The notes under the pieces were generated by a model that searched no databases, had not been told where the DNA came from, and saw only the letters and a list, made by a program, of their open reading frames with translations. A stretch of 28,857 bases of DNA from Candidatus Gastranaerophilales bacterium (GTDB taxonomy: Bacteria; Cyanobacteriota; Vampirovibrionia; Gastranaerophilales; Gastranaerophilaceae): the NCBI GenBank assembly GCA_900552525.1, contig UNSK01000026.1, positions 1-28,857 on the forward strand, given 5' to 3'. Positions 1 through 28,857 of this stretch are shown in pieces (the stretch's first letter is position 1; each line of letters starts with the position of its first letter). The position numbers were made by a program, and so were the translations under genes.

Positions 1-55
1 AGTTTATTAGGGCTTTTAAGCGAGGTGTTAACATGAAAATTAACACCAATCTATC
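1..55 (+). repeat. Flagellin leader repeat, copy 1
   Basis: The first 55 bases of the window are identical to 22786-22840. They cover the 5' leader, the ribosome binding site (GCGAGG) and the first codons of the flagellin gene. Identity stops at codon 8. The promoter of this copy lies outside the window. Confidence 0.95.
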
Positions 56-1901
56 AAGCTTAATAGTGCAATCCAGCTTAAAGGCATCAACCAACGGATT
101 AAATACAGCAATCGAACGTATGACAACTGGTTTTAAGATAAATCATGCGAAAGATAATGCTGCAAATTATTCAATTAATACAAAGTTATCAAGTAAGATT
201 AGTGCATATCAGGTAGCTGAAGATAATGCAATGATGGGCTTAGAGCTTGTTCAAACCGCTTCTAAGAGTTTGTCGACTATGTCAAATCTAGGCTTAAGGT
301 TAATGAATCTTGCTGTGTTAGCGGCAAATGGAACTAGTGCATCAAGTTCAATAGCAGCTTTGAATAAAGAAGCTGAACAATTAATCCGTGAAATTTATCG
401 GGAAAAAAGTAACTGTAAGTATAATAACATTGCGCTTTGGGGTGATGAAGTAAACTTTCACAATGATGCAATGGACTTAAAACTAAATTCACAGGGCTTT
501 TTGAAGGAAGTCAAAGTTCGTGATACATCTTCTATGACAGCGTTATCATCAGTGGATTCAAATACGGTAATCTCAAACGGTGCGTATAAAATTTCGAGTG
601 TCGGGGAATTGGCAAAATTGGCAGAAATGGTAAATGCAGGGAAGGTTACAGGGGGAGAATTTGTTCTGGCAGCTGATATTGATTTGAGTATATATTCTTC
701 AGGTGCAGGTTGGACACCGATTGGTTCAGGAGATAATCCATTCCAAGTAAGTTTTGATGGAAACGGACATACGATTTCTAATCTGTATATTAATAGTGGA
801 GACGGTGGTAAAGGATTATTTGGTAAAATTGCAAGTGGTTCAGAGGTGAAAAATCTCAGATTAGCAGATATATATATGCGAGCCTCTTGGAGTAGCGGTG
901 CTATCTGCTCATCCATAGCTTCTGGCGGAATTGTTACAAATTGCAGCGTAGAGGGTGGAACAATGGTGGATAGCTCAAACGGTGCATACTATGGCGGTAT
1001 AGCAAGCTCATGCGAAAAAGGAGGCATTTCTTATTGTTATACAGATTTAGATATTGATGTTCGGCAATTTGCTGGAGGTATTGTTGGACAAGGATATGCA
1101 GAATATTGCCTTTCAAATGCGACAATAACCAGGGCTGGTGCTGCTGGCGGTATTTGCGGACGTGGCGGCTATGTAACAAATAGTGCTTTTTCTGGCAGGA
1201 TTGTAAGCGACGATGGCTCTATCGGCGGTATCATCGGGGAATGGGGTTCTGCTACTGATTGTTATTTTAGTGGAACAATAAGCGGAACGTACAATGTTGG
1301 CGGAATTATCGGAACAGAGCGTTGGGGACACAATATGTCCAACAACTATGTTGCCGGAAGTGTGCAAGGAACTAATAATACAGGGATATTTGTTGGAAGT
1401 CTGTCTTCTAATATATCTTTGACAAATTCTTATTATGATTCAAGCAAGGTTGCTGGTTTGCCTGTATGTGGACTTGGTAATTTCAAAGAGTGCGATGTTG
1501 TTGATACATTTGCTTTTGCAAACTGGGATTTTCAAGTTGGTATAAATTCTACAGATTCTTCAATATTGAACTATACAATGCACATGGAAAATTTAGGCCT
1601 GTATGATATTTTAAATTCAGGGCTCAATTCTCCGAATTCTTTAGCTGTAATAGATAATTTTTTGAGCATAATTGAAAACGAACAGACCAAAATCGGTGCA
1701 ATAGAAAACCGGCTTGAAAGTGCGTTAGAACAGATTGGAGTTGCGTATGATAATTTAGTATCAACCCGGTCAACCATTCTCGATGCAGATATTGCAGAAG
1801 AAAGCAGTGCTTATATTAGAAACCAAATTTTGCAGCAAGCTGCTATGACGCTTATGGCTACGGCAAACCAAACACCAGCTATAGCATTGCAGTTATTATA
1901 A
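33..1901 (+). CDS. Flagellin with GLUG-repeat variable domain (intact copy)
   Basis: This encodes a 622-residue flagellin, the subunit of the flagellar filament, exported by the flagellar type III system. The N-terminal helical domain (about residues 1-135) opens with MKINTNLSSL and contains the typical ERMTTGFKINHAKDNAANYS stretch. The C-terminal helical domain (about 545-622) carries LESALEQIG, DADIAEESS and QILQQA and ends in LQLL. Between them, residues about 185-480 look like a beta-helical adhesin domain: an entry segment with WTPIGS and FDGNGHTISNLYI, then GLUG-type units such as GGIVGQG, GGICGRG, GGIIGEW and GGIIGTE. The start follows GCGAGG 7 nt upstream. Usual flagellins are 270-500 residues; the GLUG insert explains the extra length. 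The second half of its N-terminal domain is divergent (RECK-like wording replaced: REKSNCKYNNIALW where flagellins normally have a T-x-F/Y-N-G motif). Flagellin identity is certain; how well it polymerises is not. Confidence 0.93.
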   Translation: MKINTNLSSLIVQSSLKASTNGLNTAIERMTTGFKINHAKDNAANYSINTKLSSKISAYQVAEDNAMMGLELVQTASKSLSTMSNLGLRLMNLAVLAANGTSASSSIAALNKEAEQLIREIYREKSNCKYNNIALWGDEVNFHNDAMDLKLNSQGFLKEVKVRDTSSMTALSSVDSNTVISNGAYKISSVGELAKLAEMVNAGKVTGGEFVLAADIDLSIYSSGAGWTPIGSGDNPFQVSFDGNGHTISNLYINSGDGGKGLFGKIASGSEVKNLRLADIYMRASWSSGAICSSIASGGIVTNCSVEGGTMVDSSNGAYYGGIASSCEKGGISYCYTDLDIDVRQFAGGIVGQGYAEYCLSNATITRAGAAGGICGRGGYVTNSAFSGRIVSDDGSIGGIIGEWGSATDCYFSGTISGTYNVGGIIGTERWGHNMSNNYVAGSVQGTNNTGIFVGSLSSNISLTNSYYDSSKVAGLPVCGLGNFKECDVVDTFAFANWDFQVGINSTDSSILNYTMHMENLGLYDILNSGLNSPNSLAVIDNFLSIIENEQTKIGAIENRLESALEQIGVAYDNLVSTRSTILDADIAEESSAYIRNQILQQAAMTLMATANQTPAIALQLL

Positions 1902-2147
1902 TTCTGCGTCACTGCGTTCGTTCACGCAAAAAAAAGCTATGAACTTTTTATCGTGCATAGCTGTTGATTAGGGATATGTGTATCGTCGTTTTTTAAGGAG
2001 TATAGTTATATATTAGCAGTATATTTTTTAAATAAAATCATTAGAATGTATGATTTTGTAATGAATCTTAACAATTATTTTAGATAAGCTTTAAATAGGA
2101 TAGCCGGGCTAATACTATGTGAGTACGCCTGCTTGGCATTTATATTA
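1902..2147. other. Intergenic gap after flagellin 1 with two small stem-loops
   Basis: There is no credible gene here. Two hairpins follow the flagellin stop: TGCGT/ACGCA (1913-1928, 6-nt loop) and AGCTATG/CATAGCT (1935-1962, 14-nt loop). They are separated by a run of A, and neither is followed by a good T tract, so they are weak candidates for flagellin transcript termination. A small palindrome TAGCCGGGCTA occurs near 2100. An AGGAG sequence near 1996 is not followed by a usable reading frame. Confidence 0.4.
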
Positions 2148-2175
2148 TTGAAAAAAGATTATTATATATTAGAAT
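2148..2175 (+). promoter_or_regulatory. Sigma-70-type promoter for the VKOR operon
   Basis: TTGAAA (2148-2153), a 16-nt spacer and TAGAAT (2170-2175). Predicted transcription starts near 2182, leaving about 26 nt of leader with GGGAG before the ATG at 2208. Confidence 0.5.
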
Positions 2176-2207
2176 TAGTAGTGTAGATTAGACGGGAGCA
2201 TAATTGT

Positions 2208-3374
2208 ATGAATATAGATAAAAAGAAATTAACAGTACAGATTCTTGCACTCATCGGACTTGCGTTATCGATAAAACTTGCATGCATCTATTATGTTGCT
2301 AATTATGAAAAATATGCATTATCAAGCTTTTGTTCTATAAGTGAGTTTGTTGATTGTGACGGAGCCGCAAGATCAACAGTATCACAGTTCTGGGGAATAC
2401 CCCTTGCTTATTGGGGGATATTCTTTTATATAACAATACTTTTCTTAACTATTGTTGATAAATTAAAAGGAATTAGATTTTTAAAATTTCTAGAAGTCTT
2501 TAAAAATCCAATGTCTTATATAGCAGTTCTTGGTACTATCGCATTTACAGTATCAATGGTACTGGCCGGTCTGAGTATCTTTAAAATACATAAGCTGTGT
2601 ATTTTATGCGTGATAACATATTTTATTGATTTAATTATTGCACTGGTCGCATTTTCTAGAAATTCTATCATAGATACTTTCAGGGACTTTATTGATGGTG
2701 CAAAAAAATATACAAAAACCTTTATTGTACTTGTGATTTTAGCCGCTTCATTCTTGTGCTACAGCGGACTGACATATAATTTTGTTCCTCATATCAAGAG
2801 AAGCAAATCAATCATGAAGTATCGTAAAATGACTTATAATCCATACAGAGTTAACGGTAACCAGCTCGGACCAGAGAATGCTTCTGTTGTTGTAGAACTT
2901 TATTCCGACTTTGTGTGCCCTCTATGTTATATTCATAATATAATGCTGCATCAGGCAGTGAGCGAGTTTTCAAATGTAAAAGTTGTACACCACAACTTCC
3001 CGTTTGATAAAGAATGCAACCCATATATAAGCGTGAATATGCACCCGGGAGCATGCTTTATGTCAAAAGCCGCAATAGCAGCAAGAAATCAGGGAAATTA
3101 CTGGGGAATGAGTTCTATGCTATATGAAAATCAGCCATATAATGAGGCGGACGTATGGAAAATTGCTTCCGAACTAGGTTTAAATGCTGAAAAGTTACAG
3201 CAGGACATGAATTCTCAAAATACAATGGATGAAATAGAAACCGAGTTGAAAAAAGCTCAAGACCTCGGCCTTGATGCTACACCAACAATGTTTGTAAATG
3301 GAGAAAAAATTGTCGGTGTCAAACCTTATTATGAGCTAAAGGAAATTTTGGTTAAGCATGGTGCAAAAAAATAA
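2208..3374 (+). CDS. VKOR-DsbA fusion, disulfide bond formation protein
   Basis: This is a 388-residue membrane enzyme that makes disulfide bonds in exported proteins. The N-terminal half is a vitamin K epoxide reductase (VKOR) domain. It has several transmembrane helices, a loop cysteine pair C42/C50, the quinone-side pair CILC (131-134), and a conserved Ser/Trp loop near 57-62. A further membrane segment (about 171-190) leads into a periplasmic DsbA/thioredoxin-like domain with active site CPLC (237-240) and cis-proline loop ATPTMFVNG (cis-Pro 359). In known VKOR fusions, electrons pass from substrate to the thioredoxin domain, then through the VKOR cysteines to quinone. Here the fused domain is DsbA-like. 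Extra cysteines C270 and C283 lie in the DsbA domain. It overlaps queH by 17 nt. The fusion is clear; the natural substrates are unknown. Confidence 0.9.
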   Translation: MNIDKKKLTVQILALIGLALSIKLACIYYVANYEKYALSSFCSISEFVDCDGAARSTVSQFWGIPLAYWGIFFYITILFLTIVDKLKGIRFLKFLEVFKNPMSYIAVLGTIAFTVSMVLAGLSIFKIHKLCILCVITYFIDLIIALVAFSRNSIIDTFRDFIDGAKKYTKTFIVLVILAASFLCYSGLTYNFVPHIKRSKSIMKYRKMTYNPYRVNGNQLGPENASVVVELYSDFVCPLCYIHNIMLHQAVSEFSNVKVVHHNFPFDKECNPYISVNMHPGACFMSKAAIAARNQGNYWGMSSMLYENQPYNEADVWKIASELGLNAEKLQQDMNSQNTMDEIETELKKAQDLGLDATPTMFVNGEKIVGVKPYYELKEILVKHGAKK

Positions 3375-22633: not shown

Positions 22634-22754
22634 AACTTCTCCTTTTATACCCTTAAAGTGTTATTTATTTACCTTATTATAGCAGAAACAAAACATAAAG
22701 ATTTGTAACAAAATTTATATAAATTTTAAACGAAATATGTTTAATCAATGACCC

Positions 22755-22781
22755 TGAAACCCCTACAGCTATAGGCAGATA
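22755..22781 (+). promoter_or_regulatory. Candidate sigma-28 (FliA) promoter of flagellin 2
   Basis: TGAAACCC (22755-22762), 11 nt, GGCAGATA (22774-22781). This resembles the flagellar sigma consensus TAAAGTTT-N11-GCCGATAA in spacing and several bases. The predicted start is near 22788, exactly where the leader shared by both flagellin genes begins. Confidence 0.5.
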
Positions 22782-22785
22782 CTCT

Positions 22786-22840
22786 AGTTTATTAGGGCTT
22801 TTAAGCGAGGTGTTAACATGAAAATTAACACCAATCTATC
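22786..22840 (+). repeat. Flagellin leader repeat, copy 2
   Basis: 55 nt identical to positions 1-55 of the window, covering leader, GCGAGG ribosome binding site and first codons. Confidence 0.95.
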
Positions 22841-24688
22841 GAGCTTAATAGTTCAATCGGGCTTAAAAACCTCAACCAATGGTTTAAATCAGGCAATCGA
22901 ACGTATGACCACTGGTTTTAAGATAAACCATGCCAAAGACAACGCTGCAAACTATTCAATAAGTACGAAATTATCTAGTAAAATAAGCGGCTATCAAAGC
23001 GTCAATGGGTTTAGACCTGGTTCAAACAGCAAGCTCAAGCTTAGAATGGTGCTTATGGGTATAAATCTATTGATGCAATAAATTCCGAAGCTCGTTCAAT
23101 AGTTCAGGAATTGAATCGTATAAAGCAGACAACCGAATACAACGGAATCAATCTATTATCATCGAGTGGTGAATCTGTTGCTTCGTCAGGCCAATTTATA
23201 GAAGAAATAACTCGTCGTGATACTTCCGGAATGACAACGTTAGCAAGTGTAGATGAATCAATATAACTAACAAGTGGTACTTATTCCATCTCAACAGCAG
23301 AAGAACTTGCAAAACTCGCCGCAATGACAAATAATGGGTTAATAGGTGAGAATACAGAATTTGTTTTAGCAAACGATATCGACCTTTCTGCTTACTCAAC
23401 AGGTGAAGGCTGGACGCCAATAGGAAGTCCTTCTAAAAGTTTTACAGCCACCTTTGATGGTAATGGACATGTGATTTCGAAGCTTTATATCAATCGACCA
23501 TCATCGGGTTCGGCTCTAGGCTTGTTTGGGCAAGTAGACGGTGCGGAGATAAAAAATATCGGTTTAGAGAATGTGAACGTGACGGGGAGGGAGCTATTTA
23601 TTGGTGGACTGCTTGGGCTTGGATTAAATGATACAATGATAACAAACTGTTATGTGACAGGTAGTGTAAACGGGGGGAGCTATACAGGTGGAATGGCCGG
23701 GAGTTCCGATGGAACCATTATAAACAGCTATGCCACAGGTAGTGTGACGGGGACTAGTTATCTTGGTGGTCTACTGGGACGGTCTGCAGTTTCTATAACG
23801 ATAACAAATTGCTGTTCAACGGGTAATGTGACTGGGTCTGGGCTTGGTCAATGTGTAGGTGGGCTGCTTGGGCTGGCAAAAGAAGCAACAATAAGTAACA
23901 GCTATGCCACGGGCAGTGTGACGGGGAGGATGTCTGTTGGCGGCCTACTGGGGGAGGGAAGCTCAGGTGCAACAACAACAATAATAAGTAACAGCTATGC
24001 CACAGGTAGTGTGACTGGGAGTAGTTATGTTGGCGGCCTACTGGGGTTGGGAGTTAAGGGTAGCGTAATAAATAGCTATGCAACAGGTAGAGTGACGGGA
24101 AATGACGATGTTGGCGGTCTGTTAGGCTTTGCAACTGGAACAACTCTTGATAATGCGTATTATACAGATACTACCGGTCAAACAAACGGTCTCGGTTTGG
24201 GAGTTCACTACGGAACAGCTCAACTGGTAACAATGGATGGTCTGCACGAGTTGATATCTCAAGGAATTTTACTTGATTATAGAGCTAAAACAGAAGATAA
24301 AAGTTCTTCAAAAGCTTACATTTTACAAATAGGAATCAATTCGGACTCATCATCCCAAATATCTTTTGAATTGTCAGGAATAGACATCTCTGCACTGGAT
24401 GGTCTTGATTTAGAAGAAGCGAATGCACTTTCTACAATAGACGAGGTATTAAAATCAATAAATGCGGAACAAACAAAACTAGGCGCATTAGAAAACCGTC
24501 TAGAAAGTGCATTAGAACAGATAGGCGTATCGTATGATAATTTAGTATCAACGCAATCAACAATTCGCGATGCAGACATCGCAGAGGAAAGCAGTGCATA
24601 TATTAGAAACCAGATTTTGCAGCAAGCTACAGCAACCCTGATGTCTACAGCAAATCAGACACCTGCTATAGCATTACAGTTATTGTAA
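22818..24688 (+). pseudogene. Second GLUG flagellin, disrupted by two deletions and a stop
   Basis: This is a paralogue of the flagellin at 33-1901. Codons 1-60 (22818-22997) are a normal flagellin N-terminus. After YQ the frame shifts: 4 nt replace what is 18 nt in the intact copy (VAEDNA), a net loss of 14. SMGLDLVQTASSSL (23002-23043) is then read in the second frame. A second junction at 23044 loses about 53 nt and moves to the third frame, which continues NGAYGYKSIDAINSEAR, the canonical TTEYNGINLLSSS, and then a TAA at 23264-23266 where the intact copy has a Val codon. The remaining 454 codons are open (from ATG 23324, without a ribosome binding site) through the GLUG repeats and a perfect flagellin C-terminus. 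As read, translation stops at 23081 after 87 residues. Promoter, leader and C-terminus are well preserved, which suggests recent decay or a silent donor copy. Confidence 0.85.
23630..24130 (+). repeat. Near-identical GLUG coding repeats in flagellin 2
   Basis: About six units of roughly 27-30 codons with the pattern NSYATGSVTG-x(3-6)-GGLLG. At DNA level, 26 nt starting at 23723 recur identically at 23990, with close copies at 23897 and 24071. The spacing is 174, 93 and 81 nt, so whole units have been gained or lost. In flagellin 1 the equivalent units are far more diverged. Confidence 0.85.
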
Positions 24689-28709: not shown

Positions 28710-28857
28710 ATATAATAAGGATATAATTTGTCGTCAATTATGCAAAATTTAAGGATAGCAAATTTACAAGGAATATTTTGTGTAGACTTACAACACCGCT
28801 GTAAGCCAGTCATAGCGCCTGTTTTGACCCTTAGGGGGGGGGGGCAGAAATCCTATA
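28710..28857 (+). other. Right-edge region with a hairpin and a run of 11 G
   Basis: No gene can be assigned. A hairpin CTTACA/TGTAAG with a 7-nt loop lies at about 28787-28805. A run of 11 G starts at 28834, striking in AT-rich DNA. An ATG at 28740 opens a frame that stays open to the edge (39 codons) and reads through the G run as Gly codons, but has no clear ribosome binding site. The region may be a contig end. Confidence 0.45.

Follow-up and report, generated by a model that had tools for sequence, protein, structure and literature searches.

What does a flagellum present to its surroundings when the outer part of its flagellin resembles a solenoid of the IgA1-protease type, and is that surface kept constant? 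The question is raised by a flagellin gene (33..1901) on a contig of Candidatus Gastranaerophilales bacterium (UNSK01000026.1, assembly GCA_900552525.1; 28,857 nucleotides [nt], forward strand), the whole of which is referred to here as the window. The original prediction for this DNA described a flagellin with conserved filament helices at both ends, a beta-helical GLUG array in the middle, and a possible adhesive or host-binding coat on the filament. Our analysis supports the view that the flagellin carries a GLUG/IgA-protease-type solenoid where the exposed outer domains sit, and that this design recurs in the lineage. In addition, GLUG-flagellin genes of relatives tend to be preceded by an open reading frame (ORF) overlapping the start of the flagellin; in a subset of them, this ORF contains a poly-G tract.

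A flagellin with a predicted beta-solenoid

The gene and its parts are as follows.

33..1901, + strand: flagellin gene, 622 amino acids (aa), uninterrupted frame (ORF list, Pfam)
39..437, + strand: Flagellin_N helical region, residues 3-135 (Pfam; helices 7-98 and 104-127 in the structure model)
528..1505, + strand: predicted GLUG-type beta-solenoid, about residues 166-491 (predicted fold, structure matches, and phmmer; without a Pfam Glug match)
1644..1898, + strand: Flagellin_C helical region, residues 538-622 (Pfam)

The gene encodes a bacterial flagellin, with both Pfam terminal regions over their cut-offs (Flagellin_N: E 8e-22, 78.2 bits against 26.6; Flagellin_C: E 1e-16, 61 bits against 23) within one uninterrupted frame, so that the expected filament helices are present at both ends. 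The protein scored under the full-length cut-off in all 25 models shown of the 26 NCBIfam flagellin equivalogs, as expected because its middle is foreign. Structure prediction modelled this middle as a beta-solenoid, whose best solved-structure matches were IgA1-protease-type solenoids, ranked above lyases; in phmmer, the sole match of residues 177-496 up to E 1 was the putative IgA1 protease 3n6z (E 5e-5). The middle is thus predicted to be a solenoid fold of the GLUG/IgA1-protease type, matching solved members above unrelated solenoids, and the anticipated beta-helix-like fold and likeness to IgA-protease-type surface proteins were both recovered. The Pfam Glug model (PF07581), which had been expected to match within residues 185-480, found nothing in the window protein up to E 1, and this part of the prediction did not hold; the GLUG assignment is made instead because of full-length similarity to Glug-positive relatives and because of the fold.

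Flagellins are usually cysteine-poor; the window flagellin has ten cysteines, nine of which lie past residue 290. Window positions 285-347 (residues 85-105), which we take to be the stretch at the TLR5 site, read NLGLRLMNLAVLAANGTSASS and differ from most members of the family alignment.

Distribution of the design in relatives

The suggestion that the insert is not a chance fusion was borne out by the homologue search, in which 1763 of 7995 scored candidate proteins passed E 0.001 (the best 120 are listed); all 44 aligned members had both flagellin regions, 31 had Glug, and nine had M26_N at the same threshold. These comparisons stay within this class of bacteria. GLUG inserts do occur in other Gastranaerophilales flagellins: in an order sample of 79 genomes that includes G001, Flagellin_N was found in 23 and Glug in 19, with both in one open frame in at least seven (G001, G009, G010, G016, G020, G023, and G079). 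Across 240 genomes of the class, the N-terminus plus entry segment of the solenoid (residues 1-330) was matched in 30 at E 1e-20, and among the matches listed nine genomes span the N-terminal part to residue 290 or further. In the nearest genus (65 genomes), the entry segment was present in 51, not always within a flagellin, and FliF was over its cut-off in 62. Flagellin_N occurred in 65/65, with 5 to 19 matches each, counts that take in contig-end pieces and may take in hook-associated proteins, which share the domain. Seven loci lie in named genomes, four of them in one Melainabacteria assembly, one in a Gastranaerophilales genome, and two assigned to uncultured bacterium.

Repeats of the entry segment were also seen in giant open frames of 4000-6100 residues (G124 contigs C67 and C68, G120 C158, G126 C4, and G101 C224), and because of these repeated matches the module appears to be common to flagellins and giant proteins of the same genomes. 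One 929-aa homologue (P0017) has, by eye, two tandem entry segments. A putative class of truncated flagellins, based on N-terminal fragments (75-81 residues) from G001 and G002, was rejected, as the fragments sit at contig ends.

Mosaic alleles and the nature of the putative coat

The window protein and its homologues P0001 and P0002 are mutually about 92% identical, and the sites private to one of the three cluster in blocks. Up to residue 267 the private sites are P0001-specific, with four P0002-specific; residues 278 to 370 hold 24 consecutive window-specific sites, which occur nowhere else; and from residue 392 onward the sites are P0002-specific, with one P0001-specific. The private sites form 11 runs, against 44.8 in 5000 shuffles, none of which was as low (four sites with three different residues were excluded). 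This block mosaic, traced in protein sequences, has its joints in the solenoid region and would most simply be read as recombination between alleles or paralogues, which suggests that the flagellin family is a multi-copy, recombining set. Three genes of G003 share 0.88-0.90 identity across 120 nt upstream. Recent conversion of the 5' end between paralogues of one genome was considered and rejected, since the first 210 nt are just 0.50-0.82 identical (L013 rows excluded).

An adhesive or host-binding role of the coat would follow from the fold and its position, and it is because of these two features that we infer that the solenoid binds something. In a less probable alternative, the solenoid has no specific ligand and acts only as passive structure and antigen on the filament, varied by phage and immune pressure like ordinary outer flagellin domains. 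Such domains are described, in the part of PMC7018530 available to us, as antigens and phage attachment sites under limited constraint, and diversification free of any ligand would fit both the mosaic and the high column entropy of the solenoid (about 1.6-2.2 bits for residues 261 to 500, compared with 0.2-0.8 for the final 60 residues). However, the fold class is specific and has been kept across 44 homologues rather than swapped for unrelated domains, although the fold itself is silent on a ligand.

Poly-G tracts upstream of GLUG flagellins

Runs of G were seen in the upstream DNA of relatives, with runs of 11 or more in 33 of the 65 genus genomes. The GLUG set comprised 64 loci (the genus entry-segment list plus G001-G003), from which three without a start and four starts with <150 nt upstream were dropped; 58 starts were kept, one being a second flagellin-type start in L024 that is counted as a putative GLUG gene. 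Within 400 nt upstream, a run of at least nine G was found at 16/58 starts, and at 18/58 when 10 G in 12 was also accepted. Flagellin genes lacking the insert had no tract in a first control of 24 starts (reduced since many ORF pieces were too short), in a second by coordinates on 40 loci, or in the 50 different genes together; this control is the best-scoring part of the listed Flagellin_N matches, with N-termini mostly alike, and one of its loci (L192) runs to a contig end and is only putatively insertless. The enrichment (18/58 vs 0/50) has P 3e-6. It was G001 and G003 that prompted the poly-G idea, and a tract was the reason for choosing five of the loci; without G001-G003 and those five loci, the comparison is 8/40 vs 0/50 (P 0.001), where one of the eight (L134) coincides with a place also found by the tract search (L074).

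The collected loci hold 95 tracts of 10 or more G, a biased set that includes the window's own; 20 lie within 400 nt before a flagellin-type start, six further off, and 24 no more than 150 nt from a contig end. In L088, L090, and L103, the tract falls within the 5' portion of an ORF continuing into a stretch that resembles, by eye, a secretion signal, and poly-G tracts may switch other surface proteins too. A 65-G run at a G001 contig end (L010, 3335-3399) is probably a sequencing artefact and inflates the raw run count of G001.

An ORF overlapping the flagellin start

In all 19 tract-bearing genes, of which three have a run of 8 G or an interrupted one and three a non-ATG start placed by alignment, exactly one of the three phases is open from the tract to the start, over 36-382 nt. 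The shuffle probabilities of these open phases multiply to about 1e-15, a product over related genes that are not independent. The stop of the open phase falls at +1 to +14 relative to the flagellin start, a position to which we give no weight because it is partly forced by the first codons of flagellin. The overlap extends to genes without a tract: among the 43 GLUG genes that start with ATG and have 300 nt of upstream DNA, the longest out-of-frame overlapping phase had a median of 171 nt, against 66 in dinucleotide shuffles, and reached P<0.05 in 29 (when run separately, in 8/13 tract-bearing and 20/30 tract-less genes). For insertless genes the corresponding values were 60 against 51 in shuffles, with 4/50 at P<0.05. 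With G001-G003 removed and mononucleotide shuffles used, 24/31 GLUG genes remained at P<0.05. A scan of 31 flagellin-type starts for sigma-28-like promoters placed only L010 (P 0.01) and L013 (P 0.035) below 0.05 relative to shuffles; L013 is not flagellin-like at its N-terminus, and the second flagellin of the window gave P 0.25.

Proposed mechanism and its alternatives

We propose that the terminal helical regions of the window flagellin would build the filament core, whereas the GLUG/IgA1-protease-type beta-solenoid would replace the usual outer domains, many copies coating the filament surface; here the domains are observed, the fold is predicted, and assembly is proposed. Outer flagellin domains are exposed, and their loss or replacement does not prevent assembly, according to the portion of PMC7018530 at hand. 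For this gut commensal, the coat might act as a surface for binding and antigenic variation, with its gene belonging to the multi-copy recombining set in which the joints of the mosaics fall in the solenoid region. In the tract-bearing genes of relatives, slippage of the tract would decide whether ribosomes reach the flagellin start and re-initiate, turning single coats on or off. Taken as a whole (solenoid-coated filament, binding or antigen-varying surface, recombining set, and slippage switch in the leader), this is the best explanation of the data, and we give it a probability of roughly 0.55. The general form of the idea for these gut relatives of cyanobacteria, in which recombining GLUG-solenoid flagellins have their coats switched through translational coupling by poly-G slippage in an overlapping leader ORF, insertless flagellins lack the switch, and the flagellum acts as a phase-variable display of adhesins or antigens, is put forward tentatively, at somewhat less than even odds.

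Several observations weigh against this explanation. The pTM (predicted template modelling score) of the structure model is only 0.63. For insertless genes, too, the combined test gives a small excess of overlapping phases (P 7e-4). Among 17 genes with a recognisable leader ATG, it is in the open phase in one at the assembled tract length, below the expected third (P 0.01), a shortfall that could arise if most coats are switched off at any given time or if the leader actually starts at another position. The second flagellin of the window (copy 2) has no poly-G tract, and the window shows just 32 nt before the first (copy 1), so that its upstream DNA and the remainder of any leader lie outside. 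Moreover, 45 of the 95 tracts are away from contig ends with no flagellin in reach, and relatives resemble one another in the DNA flanking the tracts, yet this DNA is read in differing frames. The similarity of this DNA (AAACCC...TTTT-like on one or both sides, e.g., L081, L082, and L113) holds for many tracts, even before non-flagellin genes, and a role of the tract as DNA or RNA is possible.

The last two points fit an explanation that we consider unlikely but worth retaining, namely that the poly-G is a target or spacer in the messenger RNA (mRNA) leader, or part of a mobile repeat, and switches no frame. A small RNA could act on such a target, as RepG does on the tlpB leader of Helicobacter pylori; the accessible part of PMC8295292 has RepG acting on a variable G-repeat in the mRNA leader, thought not to be via direct translational coupling. 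Against this explanation stand the single phase kept open to the start, for up to 382 nt, in every one of the 19 tract-bearing genes, and the overlapping phase that tract-less GLUG genes also keep (20/30 at P<0.05).

The second flagellin and the window edges

The remaining features of the window are the following.

1..36, + strand: 32 nt upstream of copy 1, the same as before copy 2, with an open phase ending in a TGA that overlaps the ATG (sequence comparison)
22723..22821, + strand: open phase (96 nt) overlapping the start of copy 2, with no ATG inside and no poly-G (not longer than chance in shuffles, P 0.14)
22818..24688, + strand: second flagellin, broken, with pieces 22818-22997, 22996-23046, and 23036-24685 in three frames (alignment to relatives)
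23324..24688, + strand: uninterrupted part of copy 2, containing six Glug stretches plus Flagellin_C (Pfam)
28740..28857, + strand: short ORF at the right edge that contains 11 consecutive G (28834-28844) and resembles tract-bearing leaders of relatives

A second flagellin of the same design had been cited in support of the insert. Copy 2 does have the same layout, with its six Glug stretches at E 9e-21 (73.2 bits against a cut-off of 20.5), but the gene is broken and provides no second working example: compared with the intact relatives P0020 and P0042, residues 1-60, 65-81, and 96 onward lie in three different frames, and a TAA stop codon stands at 23264-23266. Its state raises the improbable alternative that the window gene, too, is a member of the set that has fallen silent or is decaying, yields no filament protein, and acts at most as a donor for recombination. 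The mosaic alleles would suit a donor, as would copies that are alike at their ends (84-91% at window 1-200 and 84% at 1701-1900) but share 39-63% identity in 100-nt bins from 301 to 1700; on the other hand, the window gene has 622 codons without interruption, and there are homologues of equal length (P0001 and P0002) at 92% identity. Finally, an enzymatic insert, either a flagellinolysin-like protease or a polysaccharide lyase (many lyases share the beta-helix), is very improbable, because HExxH, the metallopeptidase motif of flagellinolysins, is absent from all 44 aligned members, no protease domain of the M26 IgA1 type was found, Peptidase_M26_N reached E 0.021 in the window protein, below the Pfam cut-off, and is by its Pfam name the non-catalytic N region, and lyases ranked lower in the structure matches.

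The 11-G tract at the right edge ends 13 nt before the window does, in a window of 36% GC, and its ORF is probably the leader of a gene outside. Because G001 contigs likewise terminate in flagellin 5' sequence and 24 of the 95 tracts lie near contig ends, repeated flagellin-type sequence presumably continues beyond both edges. Scans of window positions 1-2300 gave nine promoter-like sites (9.4 in shuffles) and two terminator-like sites (1.3 in shuffles), and Rfam gave no match at gathering score in the window and three loci.

Significance and comparison with known systems

New here are the mosaic of three alleles at about 92% identity, the overlapping leader ORF in relatives, and the poly-G near GLUG-flagellin starts. 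In the open-licence PubMed Central (PMC) literature, no paper combined flagellin and GLUG; Gastranaerophilales with flagellin gave nothing on the topic by title, flagellin with beta-solenoid and hypervariable likewise gave nothing relevant, and papers on the GLUG motif concern archaea, by title. If our explanation is correct, the flagella of an uncultured gut lineage bear a solenoid of the IgA1-protease/adhesin type that changes through recombination and slippage, which would tie filaments to colonisation and to immune recognition in gut Melainabacteria. Such switches could then be looked for in metagenomes by searching for G-tract ORFs that extend across the start of a following gene.

The window protein shares both terminal helical regions with bacterial flagellins (PF00669 and PF00700) and differs in its GLUG-type solenoid outer part. 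Unlike the GLUG/IgA1-protease (M26) solenoids (7uvk, 6xjb, and 3n6z), its version is borne on a flagellin, comes with no detected protease domain, and is missed by Pfam Glug. Melainabacteria, the same broad lineage, are flagellated, with several diverse flagellin genes (PMC3787301 and PMC7018530), and each genome analysed encodes at least one flagellin with a TLR5 site (PMC3787301); the portions of these accounts available to us make no mention of GLUG inserts, solenoids, or poly-G leaders. Flagellinolysins, as described in the available part of PMC5595980, are likewise natural flagellins whose hypervariable region houses a foreign domain displayed on the filament, but theirs is an HExxH metallopeptidase. 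The poly-G contingency loci of Campylobacter and Helicobacter likewise have a long G tract, expected to slip, at or near a surface gene (PMC6321876 and PMC8295292, from the parts at hand), whereas the tract described here, known from assembly consensus sequences alone, lies inside a short ORF that overlaps the start of the next gene.
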